Shown: piece after piece, positions 14,205 through 42,248 of the stretch
Position numbering within the stretch: position 1 is the first letter of the stretch
How the letters are laid out: each line of letters opens with the position of its first letter
Source: Maribacter dokdonensis DSW-8
GTDB taxonomy: Bacteria; Bacteroidota; Bacteroidia; Flavobacteriales; Flavobacteriaceae
Direction of reading: 5' to 3'
DNA length: 64,000 nt
NCBI RefSeq assembly: GCF_001447995.1
Contig: NZ_LDPE01000002.1
Span: 372,001 to 436,000 of the forward strand
The notes under the pieces: generated by a model
Databases searched by the model: none
The model's input: the letters and a program-made list of their open reading frames with translations, nothing else
Told to the model about the DNA's origin: nothing
Translations under genes and position numbers: made by a program

Positions 14205-14226
14205 ATAAAATAAATTGGATAAATTA

Positions 14227-22494: not shown

Positions 22495-23064
22495 GTTGAC
22501 CAGACCTTTGGTAAATTCATTTAGGGTTTCAACTTTTTCTTCAAAATCGCCCTTTATGGTTTTTCTAAATTCGTTGAGGTTTTTAACCAGGTCATCAATA
22601 TTTTCCGGTATAACATCTTCAAAAAACTGTCGTAGCCTTTTGGCCGTGGTTGGGGATTTACCGTTTGTTGAAATCGCCACTTTCACATTCCCTTTGGTAA
22701 CAATACCGCCCATGTAAAAATCACAGTATGGTGGGTTGTCCGCAACATTTACTAAAATTTGCCTTTCTCTACAATCATGATATACCTGTTCATTTACGGG
22801 TACGTTATCGGTAGTGGCAATGGCAATGTGTTTTCCTTTTAAAAATGATGCATCGTAAGTAGCATTGTGCATCTTAATATTGAATTTATTGGCAAGTTCA
22901 ATGGTTTCGTCCCTAAACATAGGTGCCACCATTTCTACTTGTGCATTAGGGCTAGACTTTAGAAGAAAAGTGAGTTTCTCTAGAGCCACATTGCCCCCAC
23001 CAATTATTAAGATATGCAGGTTAGATACTTTTAAAAATATGGGATATAGCTCATTCCGTTCCAT
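22480..23064 (-). CDS. precorrin-2 dehydrogenase / siroheme synthase N-terminal type
   Basis: Start chosen at MERNELYPIF (194 residues); an upstream ATG at 23106 would add 14 unrelated residues. The Rossmann motif HILIIGGGNVALEK, then ATDNVPVNEQVYHDC and NVADNPPYCDFYMGGIV, match the Met8/CysG-A NAD-dependent dehydrogenase that oxidises precorrin-2 and may insert iron. It supplies siroheme to NirB together with the methyltransferase at 28629. It overlaps the kinase gene by 14 bp, as the last gene of the nirB operon. Confidence 0.9.
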   Translation of the reverse strand: MERNELYPIFLKVSNLHILIIGGGNVALEKLTFLLKSSPNAQVEMVAPMFRDETIELANKFNIKMHNATYDASFLKGKHIAIATTDNVPVNEQVYHDCRERQILVNVADNPPYCDFYMGGIVTKGNVKVAISTNGKSPTTAKRLRQFFEDVIPENIDDLVKNLNEFRKTIKGDFEEKVETLNEFTKGLVNKKEK

Positions 23065-24923: not shown

Positions 24924-25514
24924 CTAGGCGTGTAGGGCCTTGGTAATTAAGTCTAAAGAGAATTTAGAAAGGGGAAGTTTTAGAGCTGCTTCTTGACCCT
25001 TGGTTGACATTTTTCTCCATGTTTTTTGAAGAATATCAATAGTTTTGTCCTCTGGGTGTTTATGGGCAAAGGGTTCAAAATAGAACTCTAAAAAGACCAA
25101 ACAAATAACATCTTCCAAAGTTTGGGTTTCTTCGTTTTTCTTTAGTTGTTTTTTTTGTAAAAGAAATTTGACATTGTTAATGGTTTCCTTGTCATAGCCT
25201 ATATCTTCTAAAATAGAAGCGGCTTTTGTGGCATGAAATTTTTTTAATTCTTGTCTCCATCTCAAATACCCTTCACGGTTCATCTCGTAAGACTCCCTAG
25301 GAATTTCCCATCTACAGATATGTTGACATCTTGCGGTTAGGCGTAATGCTTCAGATGCATTGGGGTCAAAGGCATTTAGCCTTTCTGTCATACGTATACC
25401 GTACAAAACTTCTTTTGGGTAGGTAGCACCTTCAAAAACTTCGGTATTAGGATCTTGCTTATTGGCTTCGTCAAATTGTTGAAATGCTAGTAGTAATTTA
25501 TCTGTGGTCGCCAT
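24924..25514 (-). CDS. DUF4202 family protein
   Basis: 196 residues, soluble and helical, with conserved LTARCQHICRWEIPRESY and LRWRQELKKFHA and a Glu/His-rich VFLEFYFEPFAHKH segment. This is the DUF4202 pattern; the His and Asp/Glu layout suggests a metal-binding helical enzyme. It sits between nirD and the sensor kinase on the nirB transcript. I know of DUF4202 next to nitrite-reductase genes in other flavobacteria, but its job is undefined. Confidence 0.85.
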   Translation of the reverse strand: MATTDKLLLAFQQFDEANKQDPNTEVFEGATYPKEVLYGIRMTERLNAFDPNASEALRLTARCQHICRWEIPRESYEMNREGYLRWRQELKKFHATKAASILEDIGYDKETINNVKFLLQKKQLKKNEETQTLEDVICLVFLEFYFEPFAHKHPEDKTIDILQKTWRKMSTKGQEAALKLPLSKFSLDLITKALHA

Positions 25515-25534: not shown

Positions 25535-25915
25535 CTATTCAGAAAAGCCAACATACACAAAGTCCGACTCTATTTTTACAGGATATGTAGCAATGGGATC
25601 TAAAGTCCCATTTAAATTTTCTCCGGTTTTTAAGGAAAATGTATTCTTGTGAAGTGGGCAGGCCACTTTAGCTTCCATATTTTCTTCACCGATCATACCT
25701 CTGGAAAGTACCATTTCCATTTTATGAGGACAAAGGTTTTGGCAGGCGTACCAAGTACCTTCTCTTGTAAAATTAAATACGGCGATCTGTTTGTCCTTAT
25801 ATTTTATACAAGCTCCGCCATTCTTAGGAAATTTGGAAATTGGCGCGGCCTTGAACCAAACCTTAACATCACTGGCAGCTACACTTGCATACGTATTCAA
25901 AACAGATAAAGACAT
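25535..25915 (-). CDS. nirD: nitrite reductase (NADH) small subunit, Rieske type
   Basis: 126 residues. A Rieske-like [2Fe-2S] fold with CPHK and, 19 residues later, CPLHKNTFSLKTG gives the two Cys/His pairs. GGACIKYKDKQIAVFNF is the typical NirD N-terminal hairpin. It assists NirB in six-electron reduction of nitrite to ammonium in the cytoplasm. It follows nirB by 91 bp on the same strand. Confidence 0.92.
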   Translation of the reverse strand: MSLSVLNTYASVAASDVKVWFKAAPISKFPKNGGACIKYKDKQIAVFNFTREGTWYACQNLCPHKMEMVLSRGMIGEENMEAKVACPLHKNTFSLKTGENLNGTLDPIATYPVKIESDFVYVGFSE

Positions 25916-26006: not shown

Positions 26007-28529
26007 TTACGCCCACTCCTTTGGCATTTTTTGTTCTCTTAAAGACACAAATTCAATATTGTTATCCGTTTCTTCAGAATTGACAAAGTGTGTATAGCGC
26101 TCTCTTATTTCTGGAGTTTCTACCGCTTCTTTCCATTCACATACATAAGAATCTACCAAGGCTTGCATTTCAGCATCCAATTCATCAACAATGCCCAAAG
26201 AGTCGTTGATAACAACGTTTTGTAAATAGGTAATACCACCTTCTAATTTCTCTAACCAAGGTGCGGTTCTTTGTAAAGGTTGCGCTGTTTTTATGTAGAA
26301 CATAATAAAACGATCTACGTATTTGATGGCGGTTTCCTTGTCAACTTTTTCAGCAAGTAAAAGGGCATGTTTAGGCGTAGCACCGCCATTACCGCCTACA
26401 TAAACATTCCATCCGCCTTCAACGGCAATGAATCCGAAGTCTTTGCCCCTTGCTTCTGCACATTCACGAATACAACCCGAAACGCCACCTTTAAATTTAT
26501 GAGGTGATCGTATGCCTTTGTATCGGTGTTCTATTTCAATAGCAAAACTTACGCTTTCATCCATACCATAGCGGCACCATGTAGATCCCACACAACTTTT
26601 CACTGTACGTAAAGATTTTCCATAAGCTTGGCCTGTTTCAAATCCTTCGGCAATCAATTCTTCCCAAATAGGAGGTAATTCGTGCAGTTTTGCTCCAAAC
26701 ATATCTATGCGCTGGCCACCGGTAATTTTGGTGTAGAGGTCATATTTTTGAGCTATTCTTCCAATGGCCATTAATTGTTTAGGTGTAATCTCTCCGCCAG
26801 CAACCCTAGGTACAACAGAGTAGGTACCGTTACGTTGTATATTGGCCAAATAACGGTCATTACTATCCTGTATGGTTTCTTGCCTGTTGGCGGTTTCATT
26901 ATATAGACTAGCAAATATTGCGGCAACTGCAGGCTTACATACCTCGCAACCATGCCCGGTACCTACTTCATCTAATAGGGTATCATAATCAGTAATTCCC
27001 TTTAATTTGGCAAGATCAAAAAGCTCTTGGCGAGAATAATCAAAATGTTCGCACAAGCGCTCTTTTACCGTTTTCCCTAAAGTCTTTAAGCTCTCCTTGA
27101 TTAAATCTGCCACCATAGGTTTACACCCGCCACAACCTGTTGTTGCCTTTGTGGCTTTGGCTACATCTTTCATGGTTTCATTGCCATCTTCTAATACAGA
27201 ACAGCAAACTTGGCCTTTGGTAACCGCTTCACAAGAACAAATAACTGCTGTATCGGGCAGGTCCATGGCACTACCAAAAGCAGAGCCGCCTTCACCTCTA
27301 GAACCAAAGATCAGTTCTTCAGCGTTATCGGGCAGTGGCATATTGTTCAAATACATTTGGTGTAAAATGCTATAATCTTCTGCATCGCCCACCATTATTC
27401 CCCCTAAAAGGGTTTTACCGTCATGGCTTACGTTTATTCTTTTATAGATACCCTTTGTTTTGTTCTCGTAGATAATGGAAAGTCCCTTTTCCGCAGGCAT
27501 ATAAGGAATACCGAAACTGGCAACATCAACACCTATTAATTTCAGTTTGGTAGACATATCTATTTCCGGTTTCATGACAACCTCGTTTTGCTCAAGAATT
27601 TGATTTACGGCCACCTCGGCCATTTCATAGCCCGGAGCCACTAAACCGTAGATCATTTGGTTGTATAACGCTACTTCACCAATGGCAAATATAGTTGGGT
27701 CAGAGGTTTGCATTTTATCGTTGACCACTATACCGCCACGCACGCCCATTTCTAGATTACAGGTTTTGCCCAATTCATCTCTTGGACGTATACCGGCGGA
27801 AATGACCAACATATCTACATCTAGTTTATCATCTTCGCCAAAGTCCATACCTGTAATGGCGCCATTGCCCATAATACTATTGGTAGCTTTTCCTGTATGT
27901 ATGGCAATACCTATGGATTCCAATGTTAATTGTAGTACGTTACTACTTCTGGAATCTAGTTGTCTAGGCATTAATTTTGGAGCAAATTCAACCACATGCG
28001 GTTCTAGCCCCATGTCCATGACAGCTTTTCCTGCCTCTAGGCCAAGTAGTCCGCCACCAAGAATAGCCGCTTTACCGTTAGGTTTAGCTTTTTTAATTTC
28101 TTCGGCATATGCTAGCATTGCCTCTAGGTCTTCTATGGTTCTATAAACAAAGACACCTTTTTTCTCTACGCCTTGTATTGGAGGAACAAATGGAGCAGAA
28201 CCCGTAGCCAATACCAGGTAGTCATATTTAAATTCTTTTTCACTGGCGGTAGTAATGGTCTTTTTACTTCTGTGGATATCGGTGACCCTTTCATTGACCA
28301 CTAATTCTATATCATTGTCCGCGTACCATTCCAAGGGAGCCATTTCTAGAGCTTTGGCATCTCTATTTTCAAAGAATTCGCTTAAGTGAACCCTATCATA
28401 GGCTGCGCGTGGTTCTTCACCAAAAACAATTAGTTTAAAATGTTTGCTTTCTTCCCTTGCGGCAAATTTTTCACAGAATTTGTATCCTACCATTCCGTTA
28501 CCGACAACAATTATTGTTTTCATACCCAT
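26007..28529 (-). CDS. nirB: nitrite reductase [NAD(P)H] large subunit
   Basis: 840 residues with the full NirB order. FAD/NAD domains (1-about 400) have VVGNGMVGYKFCEKF and AAILGGGLLGLEAG. Two BFD-type [2Fe-2S] domains follow, CSCEAVTKGQ..CGGCKP at about 430-480 and CEHFDYSRQE..CEVCKP at about 495-545. Then come the ferredoxin-like half domain GGEITPKQLMAIGR and the siroheme/[4Fe-4S] ligands CVGSTWC and GCIRECAEARGKDFG. It reduces nitrite to ammonium. Two Met codons (28529, 28523) are equally possible. A 7-2-7 operator lies 24 bp upstream. Confidence 0.96.
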   Translation of the reverse strand: MGMKTIIVVGNGMVGYKFCEKFAAREESKHFKLIVFGEEPRAAYDRVHLSEFFENRDAKALEMAPLEWYADNDIELVVNERVTDIHRSKKTITTASEKEFKYDYLVLATGSAPFVPPIQGVEKKGVFVYRTIEDLEAMLAYAEEIKKAKPNGKAAILGGGLLGLEAGKAVMDMGLEPHVVEFAPKLMPRQLDSRSSNVLQLTLESIGIAIHTGKATNSIMGNGAITGMDFGEDDKLDVDMLVISAGIRPRDELGKTCNLEMGVRGGIVVNDKMQTSDPTIFAIGEVALYNQMIYGLVAPGYEMAEVAVNQILEQNEVVMKPEIDMSTKLKLIGVDVASFGIPYMPAEKGLSIIYENKTKGIYKRINVSHDGKTLLGGIMVGDAEDYSILHQMYLNNMPLPDNAEELIFGSRGEGGSAFGSAMDLPDTAVICSCEAVTKGQVCCSVLEDGNETMKDVAKATKATTGCGGCKPMVADLIKESLKTLGKTVKERLCEHFDYSRQELFDLAKLKGITDYDTLLDEVGTGHGCEVCKPAVAAIFASLYNETANRQETIQDSNDRYLANIQRNGTYSVVPRVAGGEITPKQLMAIGRIAQKYDLYTKITGGQRIDMFGAKLHELPPIWEELIAEGFETGQAYGKSLRTVKSCVGSTWCRYGMDESVSFAIEIEHRYKGIRSPHKFKGGVSGCIRECAEARGKDFGFIAVEGGWNVYVGGNGGATPKHALLLAEKVDKETAIKYVDRFIMFYIKTAQPLQRTAPWLEKLEGGITYLQNVVINDSLGIVDELDAEMQALVDSYVCEWKEAVETPEIRERYTHFVNSEETDNNIEFVSLREQKMPKEWA

Positions 28530-28552
28530 ATTGTTTAGCTACTTAGCAATAT

Positions 28553-28568
28553 TACGTATAAATACGTA
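28553..28568 (-). promoter_or_regulatory. candidate NarL-type 7-2-7 operator before nirB
   Basis: TACGTAT-AA-ATACGTA on the plus strand, an inverted repeat with 2-bp centre. Read toward nirB it is the same 16-mer as in the operator before the nitrate reductase. A further TACGTA half-site lies at 28596 toward the methyltransferase gene. Confidence 0.65.
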
Positions 28569-28628
28569 TATAAATACTGATTTTATGAAAATAATTACGT
28601 ATTCTTGTTGAAGAATCGATAATTAATA

Positions 28629-29420
28629 ATGCTAAATACTATGAAGATGGAATTAGAAAAAACGGCAAAAGTAAGTTTAGTAGGTGCGGGTCCAGGAGCT
28701 AAAGACCTAATAACTATAAGGGGTTTGAAGGTTTTGAACCAAGCCGATATTATTTTGTACGATGCATTGATCAGTGATGATCTATTATCTGAAATACGTA
28801 CTGATATACCTAAGATATTTACGGGTAAAAGATGTGGTCAACATTCGCATTCCCAAGATGAAATCAATGAATTAATAGTAAAATATGCCTTTGAATACGG
28901 TCATGTGGTACGTTTAAAAGGTGGCGATCCTTTTGTATTTGGCAGGGCAAATGAGGAAATAGAATATGTAGAGTCATTTGGCATACCTGTTAGTGTAGTT
29001 CCTGGAATTTCCAGTGCTATAGCTGTACCATCTAGTCAAGGCATACCGATGACCAAAAGAGGAATAAGTAGTAGTTTTTGGGTGATGACGGCAACTAAAA
29101 GAGATGGTACGTTTTCGCAAGATTTGCAATATGCAGCAAAATCTTCTGCCACTATGGTTGTTTTAATGGGCATTAGAAAACTTGATGAAATAGTGAAAGA
29201 AGTTAGTAAATATAGGGGTTCAATGACGCCTATTGCGGTAATTCAAAACGGAACTACCCAACATGAAAAATGTTATGTAGCTACTTTAGATACATTGAAC
29301 AATAGTATAAGGGAGGTTGATGTTACCAAACCGGGAATTATTGTCATTGGAGACGTGGTAGCTGATCATCCATCATTTTTTGAAGAAGAAGTACAGCGTA
29401 TTCTACACCATGCTATTTAA
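28629..29420 (+). CDS. cobA: uroporphyrinogen-III C-methyltransferase
   Basis: 263 residues. VSLVGAGPGAKDLITIRGL is the SAM-binding start of SUMT enzymes, followed by DALISDDLL, RLKGGDPFVFGRANEE and VVPGISSAIAVPSSQGIP. It makes precorrin-2 from uroporphyrinogen III with SAM. Together with the dehydrogenase at 22480 it provides siroheme for NirB. It is divergent from nirB and shares its regulatory region. Met1, Met5 and Met7 are candidate starts. Confidence 0.94.
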   Translation: MLNTMKMELEKTAKVSLVGAGPGAKDLITIRGLKVLNQADIILYDALISDDLLSEIRTDIPKIFTGKRCGQHSHSQDEINELIVKYAFEYGHVVRLKGGDPFVFGRANEEIEYVESFGIPVSVVPGISSAIAVPSSQGIPMTKRGISSSFWVMTATKRDGTFSQDLQYAAKSSATMVVLMGIRKLDEIVKEVSKYRGSMTPIAVIQNGTTQHEKCYVATLDTLNNSIREVDVTKPGIIVIGDVVADHPSFFEEEVQRILHHAI

Positions 29421-29601
29421 TCAAATAAAGGAGATTTCACCTTTATAGTAGTCTAATAAAAGGTAAACGGCAAGGTATTTTAGTGACAGAAATTACACTA
29501 TTTCAATTTTTTTGAGCATTTATTTAGAATCGAATAATTGTAACAGGCTCATTTCCTTAATTCCTCAAAAATACGTAGTAATTTAAAATTATATTAAAAA
29601 C

Positions 29602-29617
29602 TACGTATAATTACGTA
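29602..29617 (+). promoter_or_regulatory. candidate NarL-type 7-2-7 operator before narK
   Basis: TACGTAT-AA-TTACGTA. An extra TACGTA half-site lies at 29572. The promoter element TAGGTTTG (TAnnTTTG) follows at 29628-29635 with no -33 box, which suggests an activated promoter. The TTG at 29633 lies inside this element, so it is not the start codon. Confidence 0.65.
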
Positions 29618-29665
29618 TTATTTATAGTAGGTTTGTATGCATTCAATAACGCAATCTGCTATATT

Positions 29666-31093
29666 ATGGAAAATCAATCTAAAAAGTCCACCACCTTAAA
29701 TTTAACGAATATAAAGAGTTTACCCATTCGTACTTTTTGGATAACTTCAATTGCATTTTTCATTTGCTTTTTTGCATGGTTCGGTATTGTGCCCTTCATG
29801 CCAGATGTTGTTAAAGATTTAGGGTTGACTCCCGATCAAAAATGGAACTCAATTATATTGGCGGTTACAGGAACCGTTTTCGCTAGACTATTAATAGGAA
29901 AGCTTTGTGATAAATATGGTCCTAGGTTATGTTATACCTATTTATTGATACTAGGTGCCATTCCTGTAATCCTTATCGGTTTTGTGCAAACGCCGCTTCA
30001 ATTTTTAATTTGCAGATTGTTTATTGGTTTTATAGGTGCTTCATTCGTAATCACCCAGTTTCATACATCTATCATGTTTGCACCCAATATTGTTGGTACC
30101 GCAAATGCAACTTCTGCCGGATGGGGTAATTTGGGTGGTGGTGCCAACCGTTTAGGTATGCCATTAATTGCTGCTGCAGTGGTAAGCTTTGGGGTTGCCG
30201 ATGAAATTGCATGGAGATATTCAATGATCATTGCAGGTATCATTGCCATGCTAATGGGGCTTGTATATTATTTCTTTACCCAAGACACACCAGAAGGTAA
30301 TTTTAAGGAATTAAAGGAGGCAGGTAAAATGCCGAAGCTAAAAAAAGATGAGGAATCGTTTTTAAGTGTTTTAAAAGATTATAGGGTGTGGATTCTTTTC
30401 ATTGTATACGCAGCATCTTTTGGAATGGAACTTACGGTGTATGGTACCATGGATGATTACTTGCAAAACACCTTTGGGTTAACAAGGTCCACTGCGGGTA
30501 ATTTAGTACTTTCTTTTGCCCTGATGAATATATTTGCCCGAACCTTGGGCGGCTTTTTCGGAGATCGTTTCGGTAGATTAAAAGGCTTGCGCGGTAGGGT
30601 ACTTTTCTTAACGGTCATATTGGCTTTAGAAGGAGTTATGCTCTCCGTTTTTTCAATGGCAACAAGCTTTGCCATGGGAATTATATTTTTAATTACCTTT
30701 AGTTTAACGGTACAAATGGCAGAAGGGGCAACGTTTTCGGTAGTGCCTTTTATAAATAAAAAAGCTATTGGTTCTATCTCTGGTATTGTTGGTGCAGGTG
30801 GTAATGTAGGTGCTTTTTTGGCGGCATTATTATTAAAATCAAAATCCGCTTTGGCAGAAACCAATGCCTTGGCAGCTAACGCTAATTTAGGTGAAGAAGC
30901 AATGAAGGCGGCTCAATCTGCTGCGGCATCGGGGGCTGTTTCAAGTGGATATTTACTTATAGGTGGCTTTGTTATAGTCACGGCACTTGTTACGCTGGCC
31001 ATTAAATTCTCCGCCGAAGATGAAAAACTAGTTAAGGAAGAATTACAAAAGGCAGATAAGTCCGTTATCAATTTATCGCCAAGTAGTATCTAA
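29666..31093 (+). CDS. narK: NarK/NasA-family nitrate/nitrite MFS transporter
   Basis: Start at MENQSKKSTT (475 residues), because the alternative TTG at 29633 lies in the promoter. About 12 TM segments. The nitrate signature is GWGNLGGGANRLGMP in TM5, and VGAGGNVGAFLAALL is its counterpart in TM11. It moves nitrate or nitrite across the inner membrane. It is followed by a Crp/Fnr regulator after 12 bp, so they share a transcript. Confidence 0.94.
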   Translation: MENQSKKSTTLNLTNIKSLPIRTFWITSIAFFICFFAWFGIVPFMPDVVKDLGLTPDQKWNSIILAVTGTVFARLLIGKLCDKYGPRLCYTYLLILGAIPVILIGFVQTPLQFLICRLFIGFIGASFVITQFHTSIMFAPNIVGTANATSAGWGNLGGGANRLGMPLIAAAVVSFGVADEIAWRYSMIIAGIIAMLMGLVYYFFTQDTPEGNFKELKEAGKMPKLKKDEESFLSVLKDYRVWILFIVYAASFGMELTVYGTMDDYLQNTFGLTRSTAGNLVLSFALMNIFARTLGGFFGDRFGRLKGLRGRVLFLTVILALEGVMLSVFSMATSFAMGIIFLITFSLTVQMAEGATFSVVPFINKKAIGSISGIVGAGGNVGAFLAALLLKSKSALAETNALAANANLGEEAMKAAQSAAASGAVSSGYLLIGGFVIVTALVTLAIKFSAEDEKLVKEELQKADKSVINLSPSSI

Positions 31094-31105
31094 ATTCATG
31101 TAGCT

Positions 31106-31864
31106 ATGCGAGCAGGTGCTAATCATATATCAACACGTATATCCGATCGATCGGAGCTGCTAGATAGTGCCTGTGGATTATGCTCCAATGAAAATTGTCT
31201 TATTCAAAAGAACATTCACACTTCTAGTATTGGCAAACTAGTAAAGGCAAGAAAAGAAATAAAGTGTAAAAAAGGACAGCAATTTATTATGGAAGGAGCT
31301 TCGGTAACCGGACTCTTCTTTCTTTTAAGTGGTAAGGTTAAAGTTTTAAGGACCGGGCTACATGGTAAAGAACAAATTGTTCGTTTTGCATCTCCAGGTG
31401 AAATCATTGGGCATAGAGGTTTTGGCACAGAAGAGACCTATCCTATTAGTGCCATTGCTTTGGTAGATTGCACCTTATGTTATTTTTCAAAAGAGTTACT
31501 TCAAGAAACATTAAGGGAAACACCTGGGCTTACGTATGATTTTATGTTGTTTTATGCCAATGAACTTAATCGTAGTGAAATAAGGGTAAAATCCTTATCT
31601 CAAATGACGGTTCGTGAACGGGTTATAGACACACTATTATATATTAACCGCAAATTTGGACAGGTAAATGGGTATTCTTCACTTTTATTAAGTAGGAGGG
31701 AATATGCAGATTATGCGGGTACTACCGAGGAGCAGGTCATAAGAATGTTCTCTATTCTCAAAAAAGAGGGCTTATTGATTACCAAAGGCAAAAGAATTGG
31801 TATTGCTGATATAGCATTGCTTAAAAAAGAAATCTCAGAGCACAATTTCTATTTGGATAGTTAA
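31106..31864 (+). CDS. Crp/Fnr-family regulator with FNR-like cysteines
   Basis: 252 residues: cyclic-nucleotide-binding fold (about 45-150), the dimer helix, and a winged helix with SRREYADYAGTTEEQVIRMF. N-terminal cysteines are C23, C26 and C31, with C122 and C125 in the sensor domain. E. coli FNR uses three N-terminal Cys plus C122 to bind an oxygen-labile [4Fe-4S]. The spacing here (CX2CX4C) is near but not identical. Co-transcribed with narK; probably regulates nitrate genes. Confidence 0.9.
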   Translation: MRAGANHISTRISDRSELLDSACGLCSNENCLIQKNIHTSSIGKLVKARKEIKCKKGQQFIMEGASVTGLFFLLSGKVKVLRTGLHGKEQIVRFASPGEIIGHRGFGTEETYPISAIALVDCTLCYFSKELLQETLRETPGLTYDFMLFYANELNRSEIRVKSLSQMTVRERVIDTLLYINRKFGQVNGYSSLLLSRREYADYAGTTEEQVIRMFSILKKEGLLITKGKRIGIADIALLKKEISEHNFYLDS

Positions 31865-32057
31865 TAGTACGTACTATCTAATCACACATACTTACGTAGT
31901 TATTCTCAATGTCCTCAGTATTTATATACTATTGATAAAGAGATTGTTAGTTGTGAAAACTGCTTTTTCGCAGTAAATGATATGTGTTTTAAAGGGTTAA
32001 TTATATGGTGCAAAAAGAGGTTTAAATATACCTAATAGCATTAACGAAAATTTAGCT

Positions 32058-32093
32058 TACGTATATATTTGCTTAAATAAGTATTAATACGTA
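32058..32093 (+). promoter_or_regulatory. nrtA promoter region with two TACGTA half-sites
   Basis: TACGTA at 32058-32063 and 32088-32093 flank the TATATTTG element at 32064-32071, a perfect TAnnTTTG. The half-sites are not in the 7-2-7 pairing. The rest of the 243-bp gap (31865-32107) holds another palindrome, ATAGTACGTACTAT, at 31864-31877 and no gene. Confidence 0.5.
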
Positions 32094-32107
32094 GAAAACT
32101 AAATGAT

Positions 32108-33502
32108 ATGATTATGAAAAACATTTTTACTTCATCTATTTTAACCCTTTCCCTCGCTTTGGTATTTACCGCTTGTGGAGATACAAAAAGTAAGAAAACC
32201 GAATCGGTTTCTGAAGAAGCTGTAGCCTCAAATACAAAAATGCTGGATATTGAAAAGCCACAGTTAACTTTTGGTTTTATAAAATTGACCGATATGGCAC
32301 CATTGGCCATTGCAAAAGAAAAGGGCTTTTTTGAAGAGGAAGGACTTTTTGTTTCGGTCGAGGCACAATCTAACTGGAAAAATGTATTGGACCGTGTTAT
32401 TGACGGTCAGTTAGACGGATCACATATGTTGGCAGGTCAGCCAATTGCTGCAGGAGCAGGTTTTGGTAGACAAGCAGAATTGGTTACTCCGTTCTCTATG
32501 GATTTAAATGGAAATGGAATTACGGTATCCAATGATGTTTGGTCAAAAATGAAACCAAATGTACCGGCAGATTCAGATGGTAAGCCAATTCATCCTATTA
32601 AGGCAGATGCATTAAAACCTGTAATTACCTCTTATAAAAATGAAGGGAAACCTTTTAAAATGGGAATGGTTTTCCCGGTATCTACCCATAATTACGAATT
32701 GCGTTATTGGTTGGCTGCAGCAGGTATTCACCCAGGGATGTATACTGCAGATAATGTACAAGGGCAAATAGATGCAGAGGTTTTACTTTCTGTTACACCT
32801 CCACCACAAATGCCGGCTACATTGGAGTCCGGTACTATTTACGGATACTGTGTAGGTGAGCCTTGGAACCAACAAGCGGTATTTAAAGGAATAGGTGTTC
32901 CGGTTACTACCAACTATGATATTTGGAAGAATAATCCTGAGAAAGTATTTGTAATGACCAAGCAGTTTGTAGAGCAGAACCCTAATACGGCAATTGCGGT
33001 TACAAAAGCATTGATCAGAGCCGGTAAATGGTTAGATGAGCCTTCTAATAGAGCAGAAGCGGTTGAGATCCTTTCTATGTCTCAATATGTAGGTGCGCCA
33101 AAAGAAGTATTGGCAAATTCTATGACCGGTACTTTTGAATTCGAAAAAGGAGATAAGCGAGAAATGCCAGATTTCAATGTATTCTATAAGTACAACGCAA
33201 CATATCCTTTCTATTCTGACGGAATTTGGTTCTTAACTCAAATGCGTAGATGGGGACAAATTCCAGAAGCTAAAACTACAGACTGGTACGCTAGTACCAT
33301 TAAGGATATCTACAGACCTGACATTTGGAAAAAGGCTGCGGATCTTTTGGTTGCCGAAGGTCAAATTCCTGCAACGGATATACCTGCAACAGATGGCTAC
33401 AAAGCCCCTACGGCAGATTTTATAGACGGTACAACCTATGATGCCAAAGATCCAATTGGGTATATCAATAGTTTTTCTATAGGTAACAAAGACAAAAAGT
33501 AA
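32108..33502 (+). CDS. nrtA: nitrate ABC transporter substrate-binding lipoprotein
   Basis: 464 residues with lipobox VFTAC (C23). The NrtA/CmpA family is recognised from [39 protein letters not shown] and [19 protein letters not shown], which shape the nitrate or bicarbonate pocket. It captures the anion in the periplasm for the following permease and ATPases. The nitrate context makes bicarbonate unlikely. A start at Met3 is also possible. Confidence 0.93.
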
Positions 33503-33535
33503 GCACATTTATTCATTGACTTTAAACAAATTATT

Positions 33536-34636
33536 ATGGAGCAAGAAATGGTCTTAAAAAACGAAAAAAGCATGTCTGCAAGTTTTAAGCAGGTACTTTT
33601 AAAACTTACACCAAGTGTAAAAAAGGATGGCATTATAAAATCTATGAAGAATGCTGGGATAACACTTCTATCCATCTTATTGTTTATAGGTTTATGGCAT
33701 ATGGGATCTAAAGCCCTTTACAACAAAGAGGCAGATTACAAGGTAGAAAAAGCGTTGCAAGAACGGGGTGAAGAAGCTGCAGCGGCAGAACGAGCTTGTA
33801 TAGAGTCGGGTGACAGTAGTTGCCAGCCCAACACCCTACCATCACCTACACAGGTTTGGGCATCTTTAAAATCTTTGGTCGCAGATCACCAAGTTATAAA
33901 AGCGGACAAGGCTGCGTTTGCAGAAAAATTGTCGGCTACCAATGAAAAATTAATTGCTCAGGGCAAAGATCCTATTGTTTATACGGGTAGGGCGTCATTT
34001 ATAGATATTGTACTTACTAGTATTAAAACGGTATTTGCAGGTTTTCTGTTGGCATTGTTGATTGCTGTGCCCATAGGTATCATAATAGGTCTTAGTCCTT
34101 CTTTACGTAGTGCGTTCAACTGGTTTATCCAAGTTTTTAAACCAGTATCGCCTGTAGTATGGTACTTATTGGTTTTTATGATCGTAAAAACTTTGTACAT
34201 AGGCGATAGTTCAGATAATGCCTTTGTTATTTCTTTTATCAGTGTTGGGCTATGTGCCATGTGGGCAACTTTGGTTAATACGGCAATGGGGGTATCATCG
34301 GTAGATAAAGATTATATCAATGTAGCCAAAGTATTGAAGTTAGGCACGTTTCAAAAAGTATTCAAAGTAATACTGCCATCTTCGTTACCCTTAATTTTCA
34401 CAGGTCTAAGAATTACCCTTTCTGTTGCCTGGATGGTTTTGATCGCTATTGAATTGCTTGCACAAAGTCAAGGTTTAGGTCTTTTCGTTTGGGAGGAATT
34501 CCAGAATGGTGCCAACGACTCCAATTCAAAAATCATTGTGGCCATGTTTGTCATAGGTATCATTGGGTTTTTATTGGATAGGTTGATGTTGACCGTACAG
34601 AACATGGTTTCTTTCAACAAAAACGAGATGGCATAA
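33536..34636 (+). CDS. nrtB: nitrate ABC transporter permease
   Basis: 366 residues, longer than the usual about 275. TM1 lies at about 41-60, then an 80-100-residue acidic/charged insert with two Cys ([17 protein letters not shown]). The BPD_transp_1 core follows with five TM segments and the EAA-like loop [22 protein letters not shown]. The C-terminal [17 protein letters not shown] is typical of the nitrate/sulfonate permeases. Encoded between the binding protein and the ATPases. Confidence 0.9.
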
Positions 34637-34653
34637 TTTATAAAAAGAAGAGC

Positions 34654-35493
34654 ATGGCATACTTAGAACTAAATAATATATACAAAACCTATGGTGAAGG
34701 AGATGGAAGTACAGAAGTACTGTCTAACATTAACCTCACCATGGATGAAGGAGAATTTGTTGCCATTGTAGGGTTTACGGGTAGCGGTAAGACCACCTTG
34801 GTAAATTTAATCAACGGTTTATTGCAGCCAACAAGCGGCGAAGTACTTTTTAAAGGAAAACCGGTAACCGATACCAGCCATGAACGTGGAGTTATTTTTC
34901 AAAACTATTCGCTATTGCCATGGTTAACTGTAGGGCAAAATATTTACATGGCGGTAAAAGAAGCTTTTCCAAAAGAAAGTAAAGCGGATTTAATGAAAAG
35001 GGTAAAGGAGTATGTGGCTATGGTAAGTCTTAGTCCCGCAATCAATAAAAGACCTAAAGAGCTTTCTGGAGGAATGCGCCAAAGGGTAGCGGTTGCACGT
35101 GCCTTGGCCATGAACCCTGAGATGATCATTATGGATGAACCTTTAGGAGCTTTAGATGCTTTGACCAGAGGTAATCTGCAAGATGAGATCTTGAATATTT
35201 GGAGCCAGGACAAGCGTACGGCATTATTGATTACCAATGATGTTGATGAAGGTATTTACATGGCAGATAGAATAATACCTCTTAAGCCAGGACCAAACGC
35301 AACTTTGGGTCCGGAGTTTAAAATAGATATAGAAAGGCCAAGGGATAAAACGGCCATGAATGACAATCCTGTTTACAAGAAAACCAGAAATGCCATTATA
35401 GAATATCTAATGGATATAGGCGAAGAGAGAAAAACGGTATCTAATGTAGAATATAAATTGCCAGAGCTTACACCAAAAAGTTTTGTCGCTTAA
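34654..35493 (+). CDS. nitrate ABC transporter ATP-binding protein (first of two)
   Basis: 279 residues. Walker [11 protein letters not shown]-loop [12 protein letters not shown], signature [16 protein letters not shown], Walker [13 protein letters not shown] and switch-region [12 protein letters not shown], where the usual switch His is Asn (TND instead of THD). It corresponds to the NrtC/NrtD pair but lacks the C-terminal NrtA-like domain of cyanobacterial NrtC. With an altered switch residue, it may be the less active half of a heterodimer. Confidence 0.9.
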
Positions 35494-35504
35494 AGAATTG
35501 GAAA

Positions 35505-36329
35505 ATGAATACAATAGAACAATCTAACGAAGTATATTCAGAGAACGGTATTATCTACCCATCCAAGGTAATGCTAGATTTGGCCGACTTAAAAAAAGTG
35601 TACCCTACGCCAAAAGGGGACTACGTAGTTCTTGAAGATTTGAATTTACAGATCTTAAAAGAAGAATTCGTAACCATTATTGGGCATTCAGGATGTGGTA
35701 AAACAACCATGCTTTCCATGATAGCAGGTCTTAATCCTATCTCTGGCGGTAATATTTCAGTTCTGGGAAATCCGGTAAAAGGTCCGGGTCCAGATAGGGG
35801 GGTTATTTTTCAATCTCCAAGCTTAATGCCTTGGATGACCGCACTTCAGAATGTCTTGTTAGGGGTCAACCAGGTTTTTCCTCAAGCCACTAAAGGACAG
35901 CGAGAAGATATTGCCAAATACTATTTACACAAAGTAGGTCTTGAGAATGCCTTTCATAAAAAAGCATCAGAACTATCTCAAGGCATGCAACAACGTGTAG
36001 GTATTGCAAGAGCCTTTGCCATTAAACCAAAAGTATTGTTGTTAGACGAACCTTTTGGAATGCTAGACTCGTTGACCAGGGGAGAGTTGCAAGATATTCT
36101 CATAGAAATTTGGAACAAGGAGAAAATTACGGCGGTCATGATTACCCATGATGTGGATGAGGCCATTTTTTTAGCTGATCGTGTTATTATGATGACCAGT
36201 GGGCCTAGGGCAAAAATTGGGGATATACTCTCCATTGACTTTGAACGACCACGAACTCGCAAATCTGTCTTGGAAAGCGACGATTATTATACCTACAGAA
36301 AACACTTAATAGATTTTCTTGAACACTAA
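35505..36329 (+). CDS. nrtD: nitrate ABC transporter ATP-binding protein (second of two)
   Basis: 274 residues. Walker [11 protein letters not shown]-loop [12 protein letters not shown], signature [16 protein letters not shown] (SQG replaces SGG), Walker [13 protein letters not shown] and switch [12 protein letters not shown] with intact His. It starts 11 bp after the first ATPase. The two paralogues carry complementary deviations (Asn switch in one, LSQG in the other), as in asymmetric ABC heterodimers. Confidence 0.9.
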
Positions 36330-36364
36330 CCATTAACTAACTCAAAATTTTAATTATAAAGATT

Positions 36365-37645
36365 ATGAAAAAACAATACCTAATCATCACCCTATTATTA
36401 CTAACGGCTAACGCCATATATGCACAATTTACACTAGATGGTCAGTTTAGACCAAGAACGGAATACAGACATGGCTTTGGTAGTTTAATACCAGATGCGG
36501 CAGATGCCGGATTCGCCATTTCTACACGTGCTCGTTTAAATGCCAAGTATGAATCTGAGGCGTATCAGTTTTACCTAAGCCTACAAGATGTAATGGTTTG
36601 GGGAGAGAACAGACAAATTCTACCAGATGATCAAAACGATTCTTTTGCCGTATTTGAAGCATGGGCAAATATAAATTTAGGAAAAGGTTGGTCTACTAAA
36701 TTGGGCCGTCAGGTGATATCTTATGATGACCAACGAATATTTGGCGGGTTAGATTGGGCACAGCAAGGAAGAAACCATGATGCCGGATTATTAAAGTACA
36801 AGAAAGATAAATTTATCTTGGACATAGGTTTGGCCTTTAGTCAAGATTTTGACAACCCAACAGGTTTTCAGTCTGTAGGTACGGCATATAATACAGCAGG
36901 ATTTTTTACCTATAAGACCATGCAATATGTATATGCAAAACAACAATGGGATGGTTTTTCGGCAAGTTTCTTAGCCCTGAACAATGGCTTTCAAAATTTT
37001 GATGATACAGACGCTGCAGACGGTGTAAGCAATTTGCAAACAATAGGTACACACTTAAATTTTAAGCAAGGAAAGTTCAATGCTAATGCCAACTTGTTTT
37101 TACAAACGGGAGAAAGACAAAACGAAGTAAAATCTAGTGCCTATTTATTAGGTTTGGAATTGGGTTATAAAGCAAGTGATAAAGTAGCGTTGGGTATTGG
37201 TACAGAAGTAATCAGTGGTAATAAAGCGGATACTACGGACAAAACTGAGGCATTTTTTCCATTGTACGGTACCAACCATAAGTTCAACGGATTTATGGAT
37301 TATTTCTACGTGGGTAACCATGCCAATTCTGTAGGTCTTTTTGATATTCATGCGAGTGCAAAATTCGATTTAGGCAAGCAGTCTAGCCTATTGGTAAAGG
37401 TGTTGAACTTTAGTGGCGAGCAAGAATTACCAAGTGGCGAGAAATCATTGGGTACTGAAATTGATTTGGTATTTGCGAAAAAATTCAAAGGCTACGGTTT
37501 GGCAATCGGGTACTCTCAAATGTTCGCTGCAGATGGTATGTATGAACTTAAGGGAATTACAGAAGATCTAGCTGCCAGTAGCCAAAATTGGGCATGGGTA
37601 CAGTTAACCATCAAGCCTCAATTTTTGAATACCAAAAAAGAATAA
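36365..37645 (+). CDS. outer membrane porin, alginate-export-like family
   Basis: 426 residues with a signal peptide to IYAQ (21). Amphipathic strands of a barrel begin QFRPRTEYRHGFG, with STRARLNAKYESEAYQFYLSLQDV and the family pattern GRQVISYDDQRIFGGLDWAQQGRNHD of alginate_exp-like porins. It follows the ABC importer on the same strand, so a role as nitrate entry pore in the outer membrane is likely but inferred. A strong terminator follows. Confidence 0.82.
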   Translation: MKKQYLIITLLLLTANAIYAQFTLDGQFRPRTEYRHGFGSLIPDAADAGFAISTRARLNAKYESEAYQFYLSLQDVMVWGENRQILPDDQNDSFAVFEAWANINLGKGWSTKLGRQVISYDDQRIFGGLDWAQQGRNHDAGLLKYKKDKFILDIGLAFSQDFDNPTGFQSVGTAYNTAGFFTYKTMQYVYAKQQWDGFSASFLALNNGFQNFDDTDAADGVSNLQTIGTHLNFKQGKFNANANLFLQTGERQNEVKSSAYLLGLELGYKASDKVALGIGTEVISGNKADTTDKTEAFFPLYGTNHKFNGFMDYFYVGNHANSVGLFDIHASAKFDLGKQSSLLVKVLNFSGEQELPSGEKSLGTEIDLVFAKKFKGYGLAIGYSQMFAADGMYELKGITEDLAASSQNWAWVQLTIKPQFLNTKKE

Positions 37646-37671
37646 TATTAGAACTTAAATTAGTTTGGTTT

Positions 37672-37712
37672 TACGGTCTATACAGCACTTTTTGTATAGA
37701 CCGTATTTTTTT
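37672..37712 (+). terminator. terminator closing the nrt-porin operon
   Basis: 13-bp stem TACGGTCTATACA / TGTATAGACCGTA followed by T7. Confidence 0.9.
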
Positions 37713-37736
37713 AAAATTATATGTAATTTAGCGGCA

Positions 37737-37752
37737 TACGTATAATTACCTA
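37737..37752 (+). promoter_or_regulatory. candidate 7-2-7 operator at the response-regulator start
   Basis: TACGTAT-AA-TTACCTA, one mismatch from the narK site and with the same spacing. It lies only 4 bp before the TTG start, so binding there would most simply repress its own gene. Confidence 0.55.
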
Positions 37753-37756
37753 TATT

Positions 37757-38431
37757 TTGAGTGAAATAACAAGAATAGTATTGGCAGATGATCACGCTTT
37801 GGTAAGGGACGGTATACGTTCTTTATTGGAAACAGAGTCTGATCTACAAGTAATTGGTGAAGCGTCTAACGGTAAAGAGGCCATTGATTTGGTAGGGGTA
37901 GTAAATCCCGATATTTTGATCATTGATATTAGAATGCCCGTTATGAACGGTATTGATGCCGTTGCCGAATTGACGCAAAGCAAATCTTCGGTGAAAACTA
38001 TAATCTTGTCAATGCATGATTCTGAAGAGTATATCTTGAAATCCATTAGCTCCGGCGCCAATGGTTATTTATTGAAAGATACTGATAAATCAGAGTTCAT
38101 TAAAGCTATACATACCGTTAGGGAAGGTGGTAAATATTTTAGCGGAGATATTAGTAATGTATTGGTAAACAATCTTTTGGGCAGCAAAAATGAGATTGTA
38201 AAAAAAGAAGAAACACCAAAAAAGACAGGTGAAAATGTTTTTGATCTTACCAATAAAGAATTAAAAGTGTTAGAGTTGGTACTCTCTGGCTTAACCAATC
38301 AGCAAATTTCCGAAAAGCTTCAGAATAGTAAGCGTACTATTGAAACGCATCGTTTTAATTTAATGCGTAAGATGGATGTAAAAAACCTCATTGATCTTTC
38401 TAAAAAATCGCAGAAGTATAATTTAATTTAA
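37757..38431 (+). CDS. NarL/FixJ-family response regulator
   Basis: 224 residues starting at TTG; no in-frame ATG lies upstream before a stop, and the receiver begins directly (ITRIVLADDHALVRDG). Acidic D11/D12, phospho-acceptor D57 in ILIIDIRMPVMNG, and the LuxR-type HTH at about 168-215 (LTNKELKVLELVLSGLTNQQ). It probably pairs with the NarX-like kinase at 23051-24901. Paired heptamers before nirB, narK, nasA and its own start are candidate binding sites. Confidence 0.93.
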   Translation: MSEITRIVLADDHALVRDGIRSLLETESDLQVIGEASNGKEAIDLVGVVNPDILIIDIRMPVMNGIDAVAELTQSKSSVKTIILSMHDSEEYILKSISSGANGYLLKDTDKSEFIKAIHTVREGGKYFSGDISNVLVNNLLGSKNEIVKKEETPKKTGENVFDLTNKELKVLELVLSGLTNQQISEKLQNSKRTIETHRFNLMRKMDVKNLIDLSKKSQKYNLI

Positions 38432-38634
38432 TATCGTTTGTATTTGAGGTTGTTGTGCTACAAAAGAGAGCTGTAGCCTAAAACGGATATGATGATAAAC
38501 AACTCTTTTTCAAATAGAGCTGAGGTTTAATACTTTAACGGGTATTAGCTCTAGAATGCTATTCTTTGACTTATTCTCAGTATTTGTCCGTTTTAATTTT
38601 GAATCACTAGTTTTTAGGCAAAACATTTATCATA

Positions 38635-38662
38635 AAAAAGTACGTATTTATACGTACTTTTT
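38635..38662 (+). promoter_or_regulatory. 28-bp perfect palindrome (7-2-7 operator) before the nitrate reductase
   Basis: Arms AAAAAGTACGTAT and ATACGTACTTTTT with centre TT, the core being TACGTAT-TT-ATACGTA. The element TATAATTTG at 38662-38670 follows, close to TAnnTTTG, so the TTG at 38668 belongs to the promoter. The 200 bp before this palindrome show no gene. Confidence 0.7.
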
Positions 38663-38706
38663 ATAATTTGCAGTATACTTCTAAACCATTCTTTATCTCT
38701 GGTAAA

Positions 38707-41700
38707 ATGAATAGTACTAAAACTCATAAAACAATATGTTCTTATTGCGGTGTAGGCTGTGGTATGTTGGTAGACGTTGATGCAAAAGGAACAATAAGCG
38801 TAGATGGTAACCCTGATTATCCTTCAAATAAGGGCATGCTTTGTACCAAAGGGCGTAATCTAAATTACGTAGCGCAAGACACTACAGATAGAATTTTATA
38901 TCCAGAGATGAAGTGGAGCCGCAATCACCCATTACAACGTGTTTCTTGGGATGCCGCCTTTGAACGTGCTGCGGCGGTTTTTAAGAGTATCATTGCAAAA
39001 CACGGTCCAGATAGTGTGGGATTTTATGTGTCAGGCCAATGCCTAACAGAAGAATACTATCTAATAAACAAATTGACCAAAGGTTTTATAGGCACAAATA
39101 ATATAGATACCAATTCTAGACTGTGCATGAGTTCTGCCGTAGTAGGATATAAGAAAACTTTAGGGGAAGACTCCGTTCCAATTTGTTATGAGGATATAGA
39201 ATTGGCAGATTGTTTTTTAATAGCAGGAGCAAATCCGGCTTGGTGCCATCCTATTTTATATAGAAGATTGGAAAAGCATAAAGAAGAAAATCCGCAGGTT
39301 AAAGTAATTGTCGTAGATCCTAGAAAAACCCAAACCTGTGCTGGGGCAGATTTACATTTGCAGATTTTACCGGGTACCGATGTAATTTTATTTAATGCCA
39401 TTGCGCGTAGATTAATAGATAAAAGAAAAATAGATGTTGCCTTTATTAAAAAACACACAGCAAATTTTGAAGCGTGTAAAGAAATGGCTTATACATTAAC
39501 GCTCAAAGAGGCGGCTAAAAAATGTGGTATTCCAGTAGCGGATATACGTAAAGCGGCAGAGTATATAGGCAATGCCAAAAAGTTCATTAGTATGTGGACC
39601 ATGGGGCTGAACCAAAGTGTTATAGGTGTTGCTAAAAATGTTTCGTTATTAAACCTATCGTTATTAACAGGTCAAATAGGAAAACCTGGTTCTGGTCCGT
39701 TTTCATTGACAGGGCAACCAAATGCCATGGGGGGTAGAGAAGTTGGTGGTATGGCCAGTTTATTGGCAGCCCATAAAAACTTGGGTAACCCTAAGCATAG
39801 AAAAGAAGTGTCCGACTTTTGGGGAGGTGGGGAAATTCAGGCAGAACCAGGGTATACCGCTACAGAAATGTTTGATGCCTTGGATGAAGAAAAACTAAAG
39901 GCCATTTGGATCATCTGTACCAATCCTGCAGTTAGTATGCCCAACGTAAAAAAGGTAGAAAGAGCATTGAAAAAGGCAAAATTCGTGGTGGTACAAGACA
40001 TATCACATAACTCGGAGACGACTAAATTTGCCGATCTTTTGCTACCTGCGGCGGGTTGGTTAGAAAAAGAAGGTACCATGACCAATTCTGAAAGAAGAAT
40101 TAGTTATCTGCCAAAAGTAATAGATGCGCCAGGAGAGGCCTTGCCAGATGCAGAGATTATTTGGCGTTTTGCACAAGCAATGGGCTATACAGGATTTGAT
40201 TATGCAAATAGTAGTGAGGTCTATGATGAGCATTGTTTGCTTACCAAAGGCACGGAAATAGATATATCTGGTCTATCTTATGAAAGGTTGATCAATGAGG
40301 GTAGTTTTCAATGGCCCGTACCGCACAAAACACATAAGGGGACACCTAGATTATTTACAGACCGTAAATTTTTCACCAATGATAAAAAAGCACATTTTAA
40401 TGCCCCATCAACGCTTTATAACAAGTCAGAGGAAACGGATAACGAATATCCATTAATATTAAATTCAGGTAGGGTTCGCGATCAATGGCATACCCGTACC
40501 AAGACCGGTAAGGTTAAGAGGTTATTGACCCATATTCCACAACCTTATTTAGAAATGAATGCTGTTGATGCCTACTTAAGAAAAATTAAGGATGGAGATA
40601 TTGCAGTGGTCAAAAGCAGACGTGGGCAGGTACAGGTGAAGGTACAGCTCAACTATGATATAAGAGAATCGGTAGTTTTTTTACCAATGCATTGGGGTAA
40701 AGTATTGAACAATGATTTTGGTAGGGCAAATAACCTGACCAACGATTTGGTAGACCCAATATCTAAAGAGCCGGATTTTAAATACTGTGCGGTTGAGGTC
40801 TCCAAATTTGTAAAAGAGAAGCAGAAGGTAGTAGTCGTAGGTGCCGGTGCCGCTGCATATCGTTTCATACAATCTTACAGAGAAAAAAATACAGAAGATG
40901 AACTTCATGTGTTTTCAAAGGAAAAAGATCCTTTTTACAATAGGGTTCTACTACCGGAATATGTTAGTGATGAACTTTCTTGGGAAGCTTTGGAAAAATT
41001 GAAGGAAGGTGAGTTGCAAAAGCTAGATGTCACCTTGCATTCCGGTATTTGTATAGACAATATCAATGCAGATGAAAAGACGATTTTAGATTCTTTGGGT
41101 AATGTGCATTCTTATGATTTGCTTATTATGGCAACGGGTAGTAGGGCATTTATCCCTAGTGATGTTCAAATAAAATTACCTGGTCGCTTTACCATGCGTG
41201 AAAGAGGCGATGCCGATAAACTTAGAAAATATTTAGCGGAAACCGGTCTAAAGGCAAAAGATCAGAATGTGGTCATTGTAGGTGGCGGACTTTTAGGTTT
41301 GGAGCTTGCAGCGGCATTGAAAAAGATCAACATCAACATTAGCATTATTCAAAGGGCACCGCGTTTAATGGAACGTCAATTGGATAGTGTTGCAAGTAGG
41401 CTACTGGCAGAAGATGTAATGGAGCGCGGCATAAACCTCTATTTTGATAATGAGGTAAGTACCGTTTTTGAGGATAAGGGCCAAAAACATAGTCTTTTAG
41501 TAAATCTAAAAACTGGTAGAACCATTCAATGTAATGCCATTGTGTATGCCATTGGTACTAGGCCCAATATAGAATTGGCAAAACAGACTGGGGTTCATAC
41601 CCGTAGGGGAGTCGTTGTAAATTCATACTTACAAAGTAGCGACCCTTCTATTTTTGCACTAGGTGAAATAGCGGAATACAAAAATTCACTTTTCGGAATT

Positions 41701-42237: not shown

Positions 42238-42248
42238 AATGATAAGAT

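Follow-up and report, generated by a model that had tools for sequence, protein, structure and literature searches.

The closest described counterparts of the system reported here are the NarX-NarL and NarQ-NarP pairs of Escherichia coli, in which a PilJ-type periplasmic nitrate-sensor kinase works with a NarL/FixJ-type regulator adjoining nitrate/nitrite genes, and in which the DNA sites are inverted heptamers around a 2-bp center (7-2-7), joined by extra single heptamers. According to the accessible part of one report, NarL represses frdA from a 7-2-7 site in the core promoter, near the transcription start (PMC4549865). A class of nitrate-sensing kinases has also been described in Bacteroidetes, with a PilJ/NarX-like sensor, a HisKA_3 domain, a P-box G-x-x-R motif, a PAS domain in Flavobacteriales, no HAMP domain, and nitrate genes nearby; the accessible parts of that report contain no DNA sites or regulon (PMC8199190). 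Our literature search, which lay mostly outside subscription journals and in part covered the best 8 to 12 matches, found no account of the operators described below or of the control of nitrate assimilation genes in Bacteroidota. Here, we analyze a window of 64,000 nucleotides from Maribacter dokdonensis DSW-8 (contig NZ_LDPE01000002.1, positions 372,001 to 436,000; all coordinates below are positions in this window), which holds a nitrate assimilation island whose promoters carry 16-bp inverted repeats. We consider it an evenly balanced proposition that these repeats are operators of one nitrate assimilation regulon read by the NarL-like regulator of the island, mainly by occlusion of the promoter.

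Four of the 16-mers, at nirB, narK, the regulator gene, and nasA, had been listed in a preliminary description of this DNA. All four are present with the letters given there, their 7-2-7 layout is borne out by the geometry of the inverted repeats, and the nirB and nasA copies are identical when each is read toward its gene. Only half-sites had been noted before nrtA; a full operator was found there. The operators and their accompanying half-sites are listed below, with promoter positions that assume the Flavobacterium psychrophilum register (T of the −7 box at −12).

28553 to 28568, no strand assigned: operator TACGTAT-AA-ATACGTA between nirB (minus strand) and cobA (plus strand), at about −26 to −11 of nirB, seen in the sequence and conserved in relatives
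29602 to 29617, plus strand: operator TACGTAT-AA-TTACGTA of narK(-crp), at about −38 to −23
32078 to 32093, plus strand: operator TAAGTAT-TA-ATACGTA of nrtA (TAAGTATTAATACGTA), at about +3 to +18
37737 to 37752, plus strand: degenerate operator TACGTAT-AA-TTACCTA at the regulator gene, adjoining its TTG start, at about +2 to +17
38641 to 38656, plus strand: operator TACGTAT-TT-ATACGTA of nasA, at about −35 to −20
28596 to 28601: additional half-site (TACGTA) next to cobA; its distance from the operator, on the nirB strand, is 33 bp
29572 to 29577: TACGTA half-site upstream of narK, 30 bp from its operator (10 half-sites at such an offset among 51 narK promoters)
31868 to 31898: half-sites TACGTA, TACTTA, and TACGTA at 31868, 31889, and 31893, right behind the Crp/Fnr gene
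32058 to 32063: TACGTA half-site immediately before the nrtA −7 box

With up to three mismatches, TACGTATNNATACGTA has 10 matches in the window, compared with a mean of 2.84 after shuffling, and none of 100 shuffles reached 10. Throughout the 4,434,543-base genome, matches with no more than one mismatch were found at four places, all in the island (28553, 29602, 32078, and 38641), and thus showed no random scatter. Exact copies of TAMGTATNNATACKTA occur at three places, likewise all within the island, while one-mismatch copies comprise the island narK site and three places elsewhere, for a total of 7 versus 6 for the reversed control. The site at the regulator gene (37737) has two mismatches, a level at which the genome holds 24 places versus 19 for the reversed pattern. 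Because such matches are at genome background, this site is believable only through its conservation: of the 32 fetched loci of relatives that include the regulator gene, 16 have a site with up to two mismatches at a distance of 10 to 18 bp ahead of the estimated start of this gene.

Conservation was examined in 199 Flavobacteriaceae genomes, in 80 named loci fetched by means of the Crp/Fnr protein, and in 21 kinase loci outside the family. Translated search (tblastn) hits below 35 to 40% identity or of short coverage, regulator hits lacking HRFN, and duplicate windows were dropped. The 80 named loci contain 37, 90, and 136 sites with zero, one, and two mismatches, compared to 0, 0, and 16 for the reversed pattern. 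These sites precede nirB/cobA, narK, nrtA, the regulator gene, and nasA, and often crp when crp does not lie behind narK; in some relatives, they are found 184 to 228 bp before nrtA. Two 6-n-6 inverted repeats led an unbiased count over 138 upstream regions: TAAGTA-N4-TACTTA, present in 42 of them, and TACGTA-N4-TACGTA, present in 23. In 20 single-base shuffles, no such repeat exceeded a count of 4. Although the background frequency of two-mismatch matches is what chance or structural repeats of AT-rich promoters would give, such an origin is scarcely credible in light of these counts, and for the nirB, narK, nrtA, and nasA sites it is refuted by the shuffle and reversed-pattern controls. When the half-sites were masked, a second palindrome search returned TATTC-N1 in 10 and CAATT-N5 in 7 of the 138 regions (maximum of 3 in 10 shuffles); these may be shared by descent among related species.

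The same 46 of the 199 family genomes carry the kinase and, at E = 0, the nasA fusion; eight more genomes have only weaker nasA hits, and in a few cases the kinase match is partial or less strong (e.g., G002, G030, G082, and G180). An orthologue of the regulator is present in all 46, near the kinase in 43 and, in the other three, at 53% identity outside the fetched stretch. Every one of these 46 genomes has the relaxed operator TAMGTAT-N2-ATACKTA, with at most one mismatch, before a cluster gene. The operators before nirB, narK, nrtA, and nasA thus recur across clusters, in agreement with the single regulon that had been suggested from the window. Exact TAMGTATWWATACKTA was detected in 44 of the 46 cluster genomes versus 15 of the 153 others, where the reversed control was found in 11. 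The kinase also occurs in several other families, where locus L165 has operators and no Crp hit. Of the 21 loci outside Flavobacteriaceae, 12 contain a full operator with no more than one mismatch; L177 (G+C content of 0.59) has TACGTATTAATACGTA and TACGTATTAATACTTA. The GC-rich locus L164 has half-sites only (12 TACGTA versus 2.6 expected from base composition), several of them in arrays before nirB and nasA.

These distributions bear on whether another conserved regulator, encoded outside the cluster, binds the operators. Co-occurrence of sites and cluster is compatible with such a protein, and the cluster-less family genomes hold 28 exact matches versus 11 for the reversed control, which implies some excess outside the regulon. 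Nevertheless, we regard an outside regulator as improbable. No place outside the island matches TACGTATNNATACGTA with at most one mismatch in the M. dokdonensis genome, the number of cluster-less genomes with a site is near the control rate (15 versus 11 of 153), and, besides the Crp/Fnr protein, the NarL-like regulator is the sole cluster protein in which a DNA-binding domain was found.

Exact TAMGTAT-WW-ATACKTA copies in cluster-less genomes were most numerous in G033 (four), G156 (three), and G039 (two). The 10 flanking proteins scanned in G033 and G156 (loci L116 to L118, L120, and L121, with L119, L122, and L123 left aside) were unrelated to nitrate and included FtsZ, a phosphoesterase, a P450, and a peptidase. 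In cluster genomes, seven outside matches among those listed were scanned (L195 was left aside); they lie at gliding genes, aconitase, integrase, AraC, nrtA, a protein without a family, and an MFS protein, and only nrtA fits the regulon.

The operators lie on core promoters. The −7 box of F. psychrophilum, TAnnTTTG, occupies −12 to −5, and TAnnTTGY is an alternative box or separate promoter class, as given in the accessible part of PMC9723704. The corresponding elements of the window are as follows.

28547 to 28554, minus strand: −7-like box TAATATTG of nirB, differing from TAnnTTTG at one position; the operator ends in the TA of this box
29628 to 29635, plus strand: narK −7 box TAGGTTTG, exact TAnnTTTG (offset of +10, as in 15 of 30 narK sites)
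32064 to 32071, plus strand: nrtA −7 box TATATTTG
37724 to 37731, plus strand: putative −7-like box upstream of the regulator gene, TAATTTAG, with one mismatch
38664 to 38671, plus strand: likely nasA −7 box TAATTTGC, of the form TAnnTTGY
38655: alternative nasA box TACTTTTT, one mismatch to TAnnTTTG

In the 46 cluster genomes, the TA that ends the operator also opens TAnnTTTG (offset of −2) at nirB in 34 exact and 8 one-mismatch cases of 45 regions, at narK in 17 exact and 4 one-mismatch cases of 32, at nasA in 5 exact and 13 one-mismatch cases of 43, and at nrtA in 3 exact cases of 19, two of which are one G177 site. Two fetched stretches of G177 overlap, and this genome is therefore counted twice in the narK and nrtA tallies. 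As the flanks are A/T-rich on both sides, the mirrored left flank served as a control. An nnTTTG to the right of the operator was found in 41 versus 2 of 73 nirB promoters, 28 versus 2 of 48 crp promoters, 25 versus 4 of 53 narK promoters, and 13 versus 0 of 46 nasA promoters. The −7 box is therefore strand specific at nirB, crp, narK, and nasA, and its overlap with the operator is not an effect of palindrome symmetry. At nrtA, where the box lies upstream of the operator, the count was 2 on the right versus 8 on the left of 79. Extra half-sites likewise keep preferred distances upstream of the operator: 75 at 19 to 23 bp among 79 nrtA promoters, 16 at 20 to 21 bp among 45 crp promoters, and 36 at 33 bp among 64 distinct nirB promoters.

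In many Maribacter-group loci, the nasA promoter carries TAnnTTGC in place of the TAnnTTTG seen at other promoters. As TAnnTTGY marks a separate promoter class in F. psychrophilum in the part of PMC9723704 cited above, nasA may use another sigma factor.

The NarX/NarL-like pair ascribed to the island in the preliminary description is present, together with a Crp/Fnr-family protein. The candidate regulators and the putative Crp/Fnr site are as follows.

23051 to 24901, minus strand: NarX-like sensor kinase with PilJ sensor, PAS, HisKA_3, and HATPase domains and a P-box-like INIAGRQRAFSQKL
37757 to 38431, plus strand: NarL/FixJ-type response regulator (receiver plus GerE), the proposed operator binder
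31106 to 31864, plus strand: Crp/Fnr-family regulator, the proposed nrtA activator
32028 to 32041, plus strand: degenerate Crp/Fnr-type site ATACCTAATAGCAT (consensus ATG-N8-CAT), centered at about −41.5 of nrtA in the assumed register

The kinase matches PF13675 (PilJ; 6.7e-11), PF07730 (HisKA_3), and PF02518 (HATPase); PAS_9 was found, and no HAMP domain was detected at an E value of 0.001. By eye, INIAGRQRAFSQKL keeps the G-x-x-R of the nitrate-sensor P-box, and several other P-box positions differ. The kinase fits the Bacteroidetes nitrate-sensing class, here as a sequence assignment; the operators and targets proposed in this study are additions to what the accessible parts of PMC8199190 describe. 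The regulator consists of a receiver domain (PF00072, 6.2e-28) and a GerE/LuxR-type DNA-binding domain (PF00196, 1.4e-16), and its best solved relative is NarL (E = 3.8e-34). However, it falls below the curated models for NarL (146.4 bits; cutoff, 250) and NarP (138.2 bits; cutoff, 343), and its aligned recognition helix reads SKRTIETHRFNLM compared to TESTVKVHVKHML in NarL, with E, T, and F in place of K188, V189, and K192. In NarL, these three recognition helix residues read bases; among the papers that a literature search listed for these residues, none dealt with NarL contacts.

Of the NarL-type site proposed earlier, the layout stands and the heptamer does not. The E. coli heptamer is TACYNMT, as cited in that proposal, in contrast to TAMGTAT here. 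Position 4 was G in all 202 sites tallied and position 3 was C or A; this tally scanned TAMGTATNNATACKTA with at most one mismatch, which biases it toward that form, and it keeps identical sites of related loci. The targets are also different, being assimilation genes with operators on most of their core promoters. The kinase class and the 7-2-7 layout are thus already known; what sets the island apart is its heptamer and recognition helix, its set of targets, and an operator fused to the −7 box.

Variation within the group points to the regulator as well. Its helix is mostly RT-x-E-x-HRFN, with HRYK, HRHN, HRAN, and HRSN in a few outgroups. The third half-site base is C in 63 of 90 cases where the regulator has ETHRFN (13 family genomes) and in 32 of 144 cases where it has EVHRFN (29 family genomes), a difference with a Mann-Whitney p of 4.6e-6 when kinship is ignored and G177 is counted twice; one EA genome gave 1 of 4, and three genomes with no regulator in the fetched stretch were left out. 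Outgroup loci with ET have 33 C versus 13 A, a few overlapping sites sharing half-sites. This covariation suggests that operator and regulator may have changed together, possibly once. The NarL-like regulator is our best candidate for the operator binder, and we consider this assignment quite likely.

Our first hypothesis was that the Crp/Fnr protein encoded behind narK reads the operators. FNR and CRP sites have a G at 4.5 bp from the dyad, and the invariant G of the TACGTAT operators occupies that position; in addition, the gene lies in the cluster and, when standing apart, often carries the operator in its own promoter. The protein has a cyclic nucleotide monophosphate-binding domain (PF00027, 7.8e-19) and an HTH_Crp domain (PF13545, 1.3e-11) and reaches no NCBIfam equivalog cutoff; two Maribacter records contain an identical protein. 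However, an orthologue (E up to 1e-50) was found in only 35 of the 199 family genomes, all among the 46 with the cluster, and the other 11 clusters all keep their operators. Furthermore, no Crp hit was obtained within the fetched stretch at any of the 21 loci outside the family, 12 of which have full operators, and the Crp helix, TTEEQVIR, hardly varies among the 80 loci while the operator changes. The hypothesis was dropped because of the operators retained in those 11 clusters and of a different palindrome that emerged at nrtA, and binding of the operators by Crp/Fnr, which the preliminary description had named as the alternative, is now very unlikely.

The Crp/Fnr protein instead seems to have a site of its own at nrtA, separate from the operators. 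A TAnnTTTG lies just upstream of the nrtA operator in all 73 nrtA-bearing loci of the 80 and in the window, and ATG-N8-CAT (searched as [ACG]TG-N8-CA[TC]) is found exactly 36 nucleotides (nt) upstream of this box in 58 of 74 cases and at 37 nt in two more. At other promoters it is rare, as judged from a search for [AG]TG-N8-CA[TC] over the 110 bp that precede the operator end (2 of 66 nirB, 2 of 51 narK, 1 of 36 nasA, and 1 of 47 crp promoters), with only the one crp case at offset −36. Nor does it occupy the −36 position in nine distinct nrtA regions with no Crp/Fnr gene detected nearby (whole-genome gene search in four, L111 to L114); one of the nine has a match 295 bp upstream. As the left half of the palindrome is degenerate in Maribacter, the window site was assigned by alignment. 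A center at −41.5 is the class II position of CRP/FNR activators. The nrtA consensus is a 14-bp palindrome with a G at 4.5 bp from the dyad, as in FNR/CRP sites, and may share the class II location in the assumed register; its half-site is ATGGT rather than TTGAT or TGTGA. Activation of nrtA from this site would be in keeping with such a position.

Other elements surround the crp-nrtA region. A strongly conserved TAAAAAGAGGTTT lies 60 to 100 nt upstream of the nrtA −7 box (L024 to L103), and a hairpin-like AAACCTG...CAGGTTT is found further upstream in many loci with the Crp/Fnr gene. In 36 of 73 relatives, the crp-nrtA gap (3.0 to 6.5 kb) holds an extra operon, and in 31 of these 36 gaps the first 450 bp behind crp contain an operator with no more than one mismatch. 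The content of this operon, checked in L025 (positions 11001 to 14522), comprises a globin, a Tll0287-like protein, a small protein, a ferredoxin-reductase-like protein with a 2Fe-2S domain, and a multiheme cytochrome c. It is possibly a nitric oxide- or nitrite-handling part of the same regulon.

In the mechanism that we propose, the PilJ-PAS kinase (23051 to 24901) would be the partner of the NarL-like regulator (37757 to 38431), a dimer of which would recognize TAMGTAT-N2-ATACKTA as a 7-2-7 site, in many cases accompanied by a further half-site at a distance of some two or three helical turns. The bound regulator would block polymerase until a nitrate signal removes it, and the Crp/Fnr protein would bind its ATG-N8-CAT at about −41.5 and activate the nrtA operon. 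Blocking is suggested because every operator in the window falls in the stretch that polymerase is expected to cover (about −38 to +18), two of them downstream of the −7 box; the repression of frdA by NarL from a 7-2-7 site near the start offers a precedent (PMC4549865). Provided that the regulator binds, occlusion is, somewhat better than evenly, the expected main mode.

Alternatively, the NarL-like regulator could bind the operators, spanning the spacer and the −7 box edge, and activate, contacting or remodeling polymerase from inside the core promoter, as MerR- and GcrA-type activators do. This option is kept mainly because the −2 register, in which operator and TAnnTTTG have a TA in common, repeats at several unrelated promoters in the mirror test. 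In addition, TTG at −33 is present in none of 104 operator promoters compared with about 8% of 168 other candidates; as the promoters are related and many offsets were available, this comparison is too weak to decide between activator and repressor. However, the Maribacter narK and nasA operators lie 9 to 12 bp further upstream and the nrtA and regulator operators lie downstream of the −7 box; with positions that differ in this way and an nrtA mirror test of 2 versus 8, one activating geometry cannot serve all promoters. Moreover, the known NarL activation sites at narG lie upstream (PMC4549865, accessible part). Repression by occlusion is accordingly favored, modestly, and activation from inside the promoter is judged unlikely. 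A broader formulation is offered only tentatively. In it, a Bacteroidota NarL-family regulator would switch nitrate assimilation promoters from inside the core promoter, through an operator fused to the −7 box at a fixed register, either as a direct activator or with nitrate logic inverted compared to E. coli. The nitrate ABC transporter would receive class II activation from a separate Crp/Fnr protein, itself controlled by that operator when encoded apart.

Several observations, besides the excess of exact sites in cluster-less genomes, weigh against a single regulon repressed by the NarL-like protein. Presence and absence separate Crp from the regulator and do not prove the regulator, because kinase, nasA, and regulator co-occur perfectly; the 11 genomes lacking the Crp/Fnr orthologue may also hold other Crp/Fnr proteins. 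A repressor of nitrate assimilation would need inverted logic, since binding by NarL-like proteins in the presence of nitrate normally means phosphorylation, and a −2 offset kept constant across several unrelated promoters would suit an activator better. The ET/EV association, uncorrected for kinship, may reflect one event only. In the 46 genomes, 20 of 43 nasA regions lack any site of up to one mismatch over a distance of 260 bp, and in some of these, nasA is directly behind narK. Finally, seven kinase loci of one other family (L164 and L171 to L176) lack a full operator, with half-sites at about 1.1 to 1.9 times expectation in L171 to L174, below expectation in L175, and at 2.4 times in L176.

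Bacteroidota are major marine heterotrophs. For their nitrate assimilation, the present analysis provides a defined operator, a list of targets, and two candidate regulators with separate sites. The change from ET to EV in the helix, set against that from TAC to TAA in the half-site, also offers a natural test of how a NarL/FixJ helix change affects DNA preference.

The remaining genes of the island are organized in two directions, with nirB, the nirD-like gene, a DUF4202 gene, and the kinase gene in this order on the minus strand. The plus strand holds cobA, narK, the Crp/Fnr gene, nrtABCD, an alginate-export-like porin gene, the NarL/FixJ regulator gene, the nasA-reductase fusion, and a NIR_SIR_ferr/rubredoxin gene.

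25535 to 25915, minus strand: nirD-like Rieske protein (family profile matches)
26007 to 28529, minus strand: nirB, NADH nitrite reductase large subunit (family profile matches)
28629 to 29420, plus strand: uroporphyrinogen-III C-methyltransferase (cobA, siroheme; family profile matches)
29633 to 31093, plus strand: narK-type nitrate/nitrite MFS transporter (just below the NCBIfam cutoff)
32108 to 36329, plus strand: nrtABCD-type nitrate ABC transporter (three genes by profile; 34654 to 35493 named by position)
38668 to 43685, plus strand: nasA-reductase fusion and NIR_SIR_ferr/rubredoxin protein

Judging from the −7 box, the true narK start is probably downstream of 29633. The DUF4202 gene (24924 to 25514) lies between nirD and the kinase gene in most clusters; several loci of other families showed no such gene close to the kinase. 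Beside the island, the protein encoded at 44002 to 45213 combines an HD domain with a Pycsar-effector transmembrane domain (PycTM).

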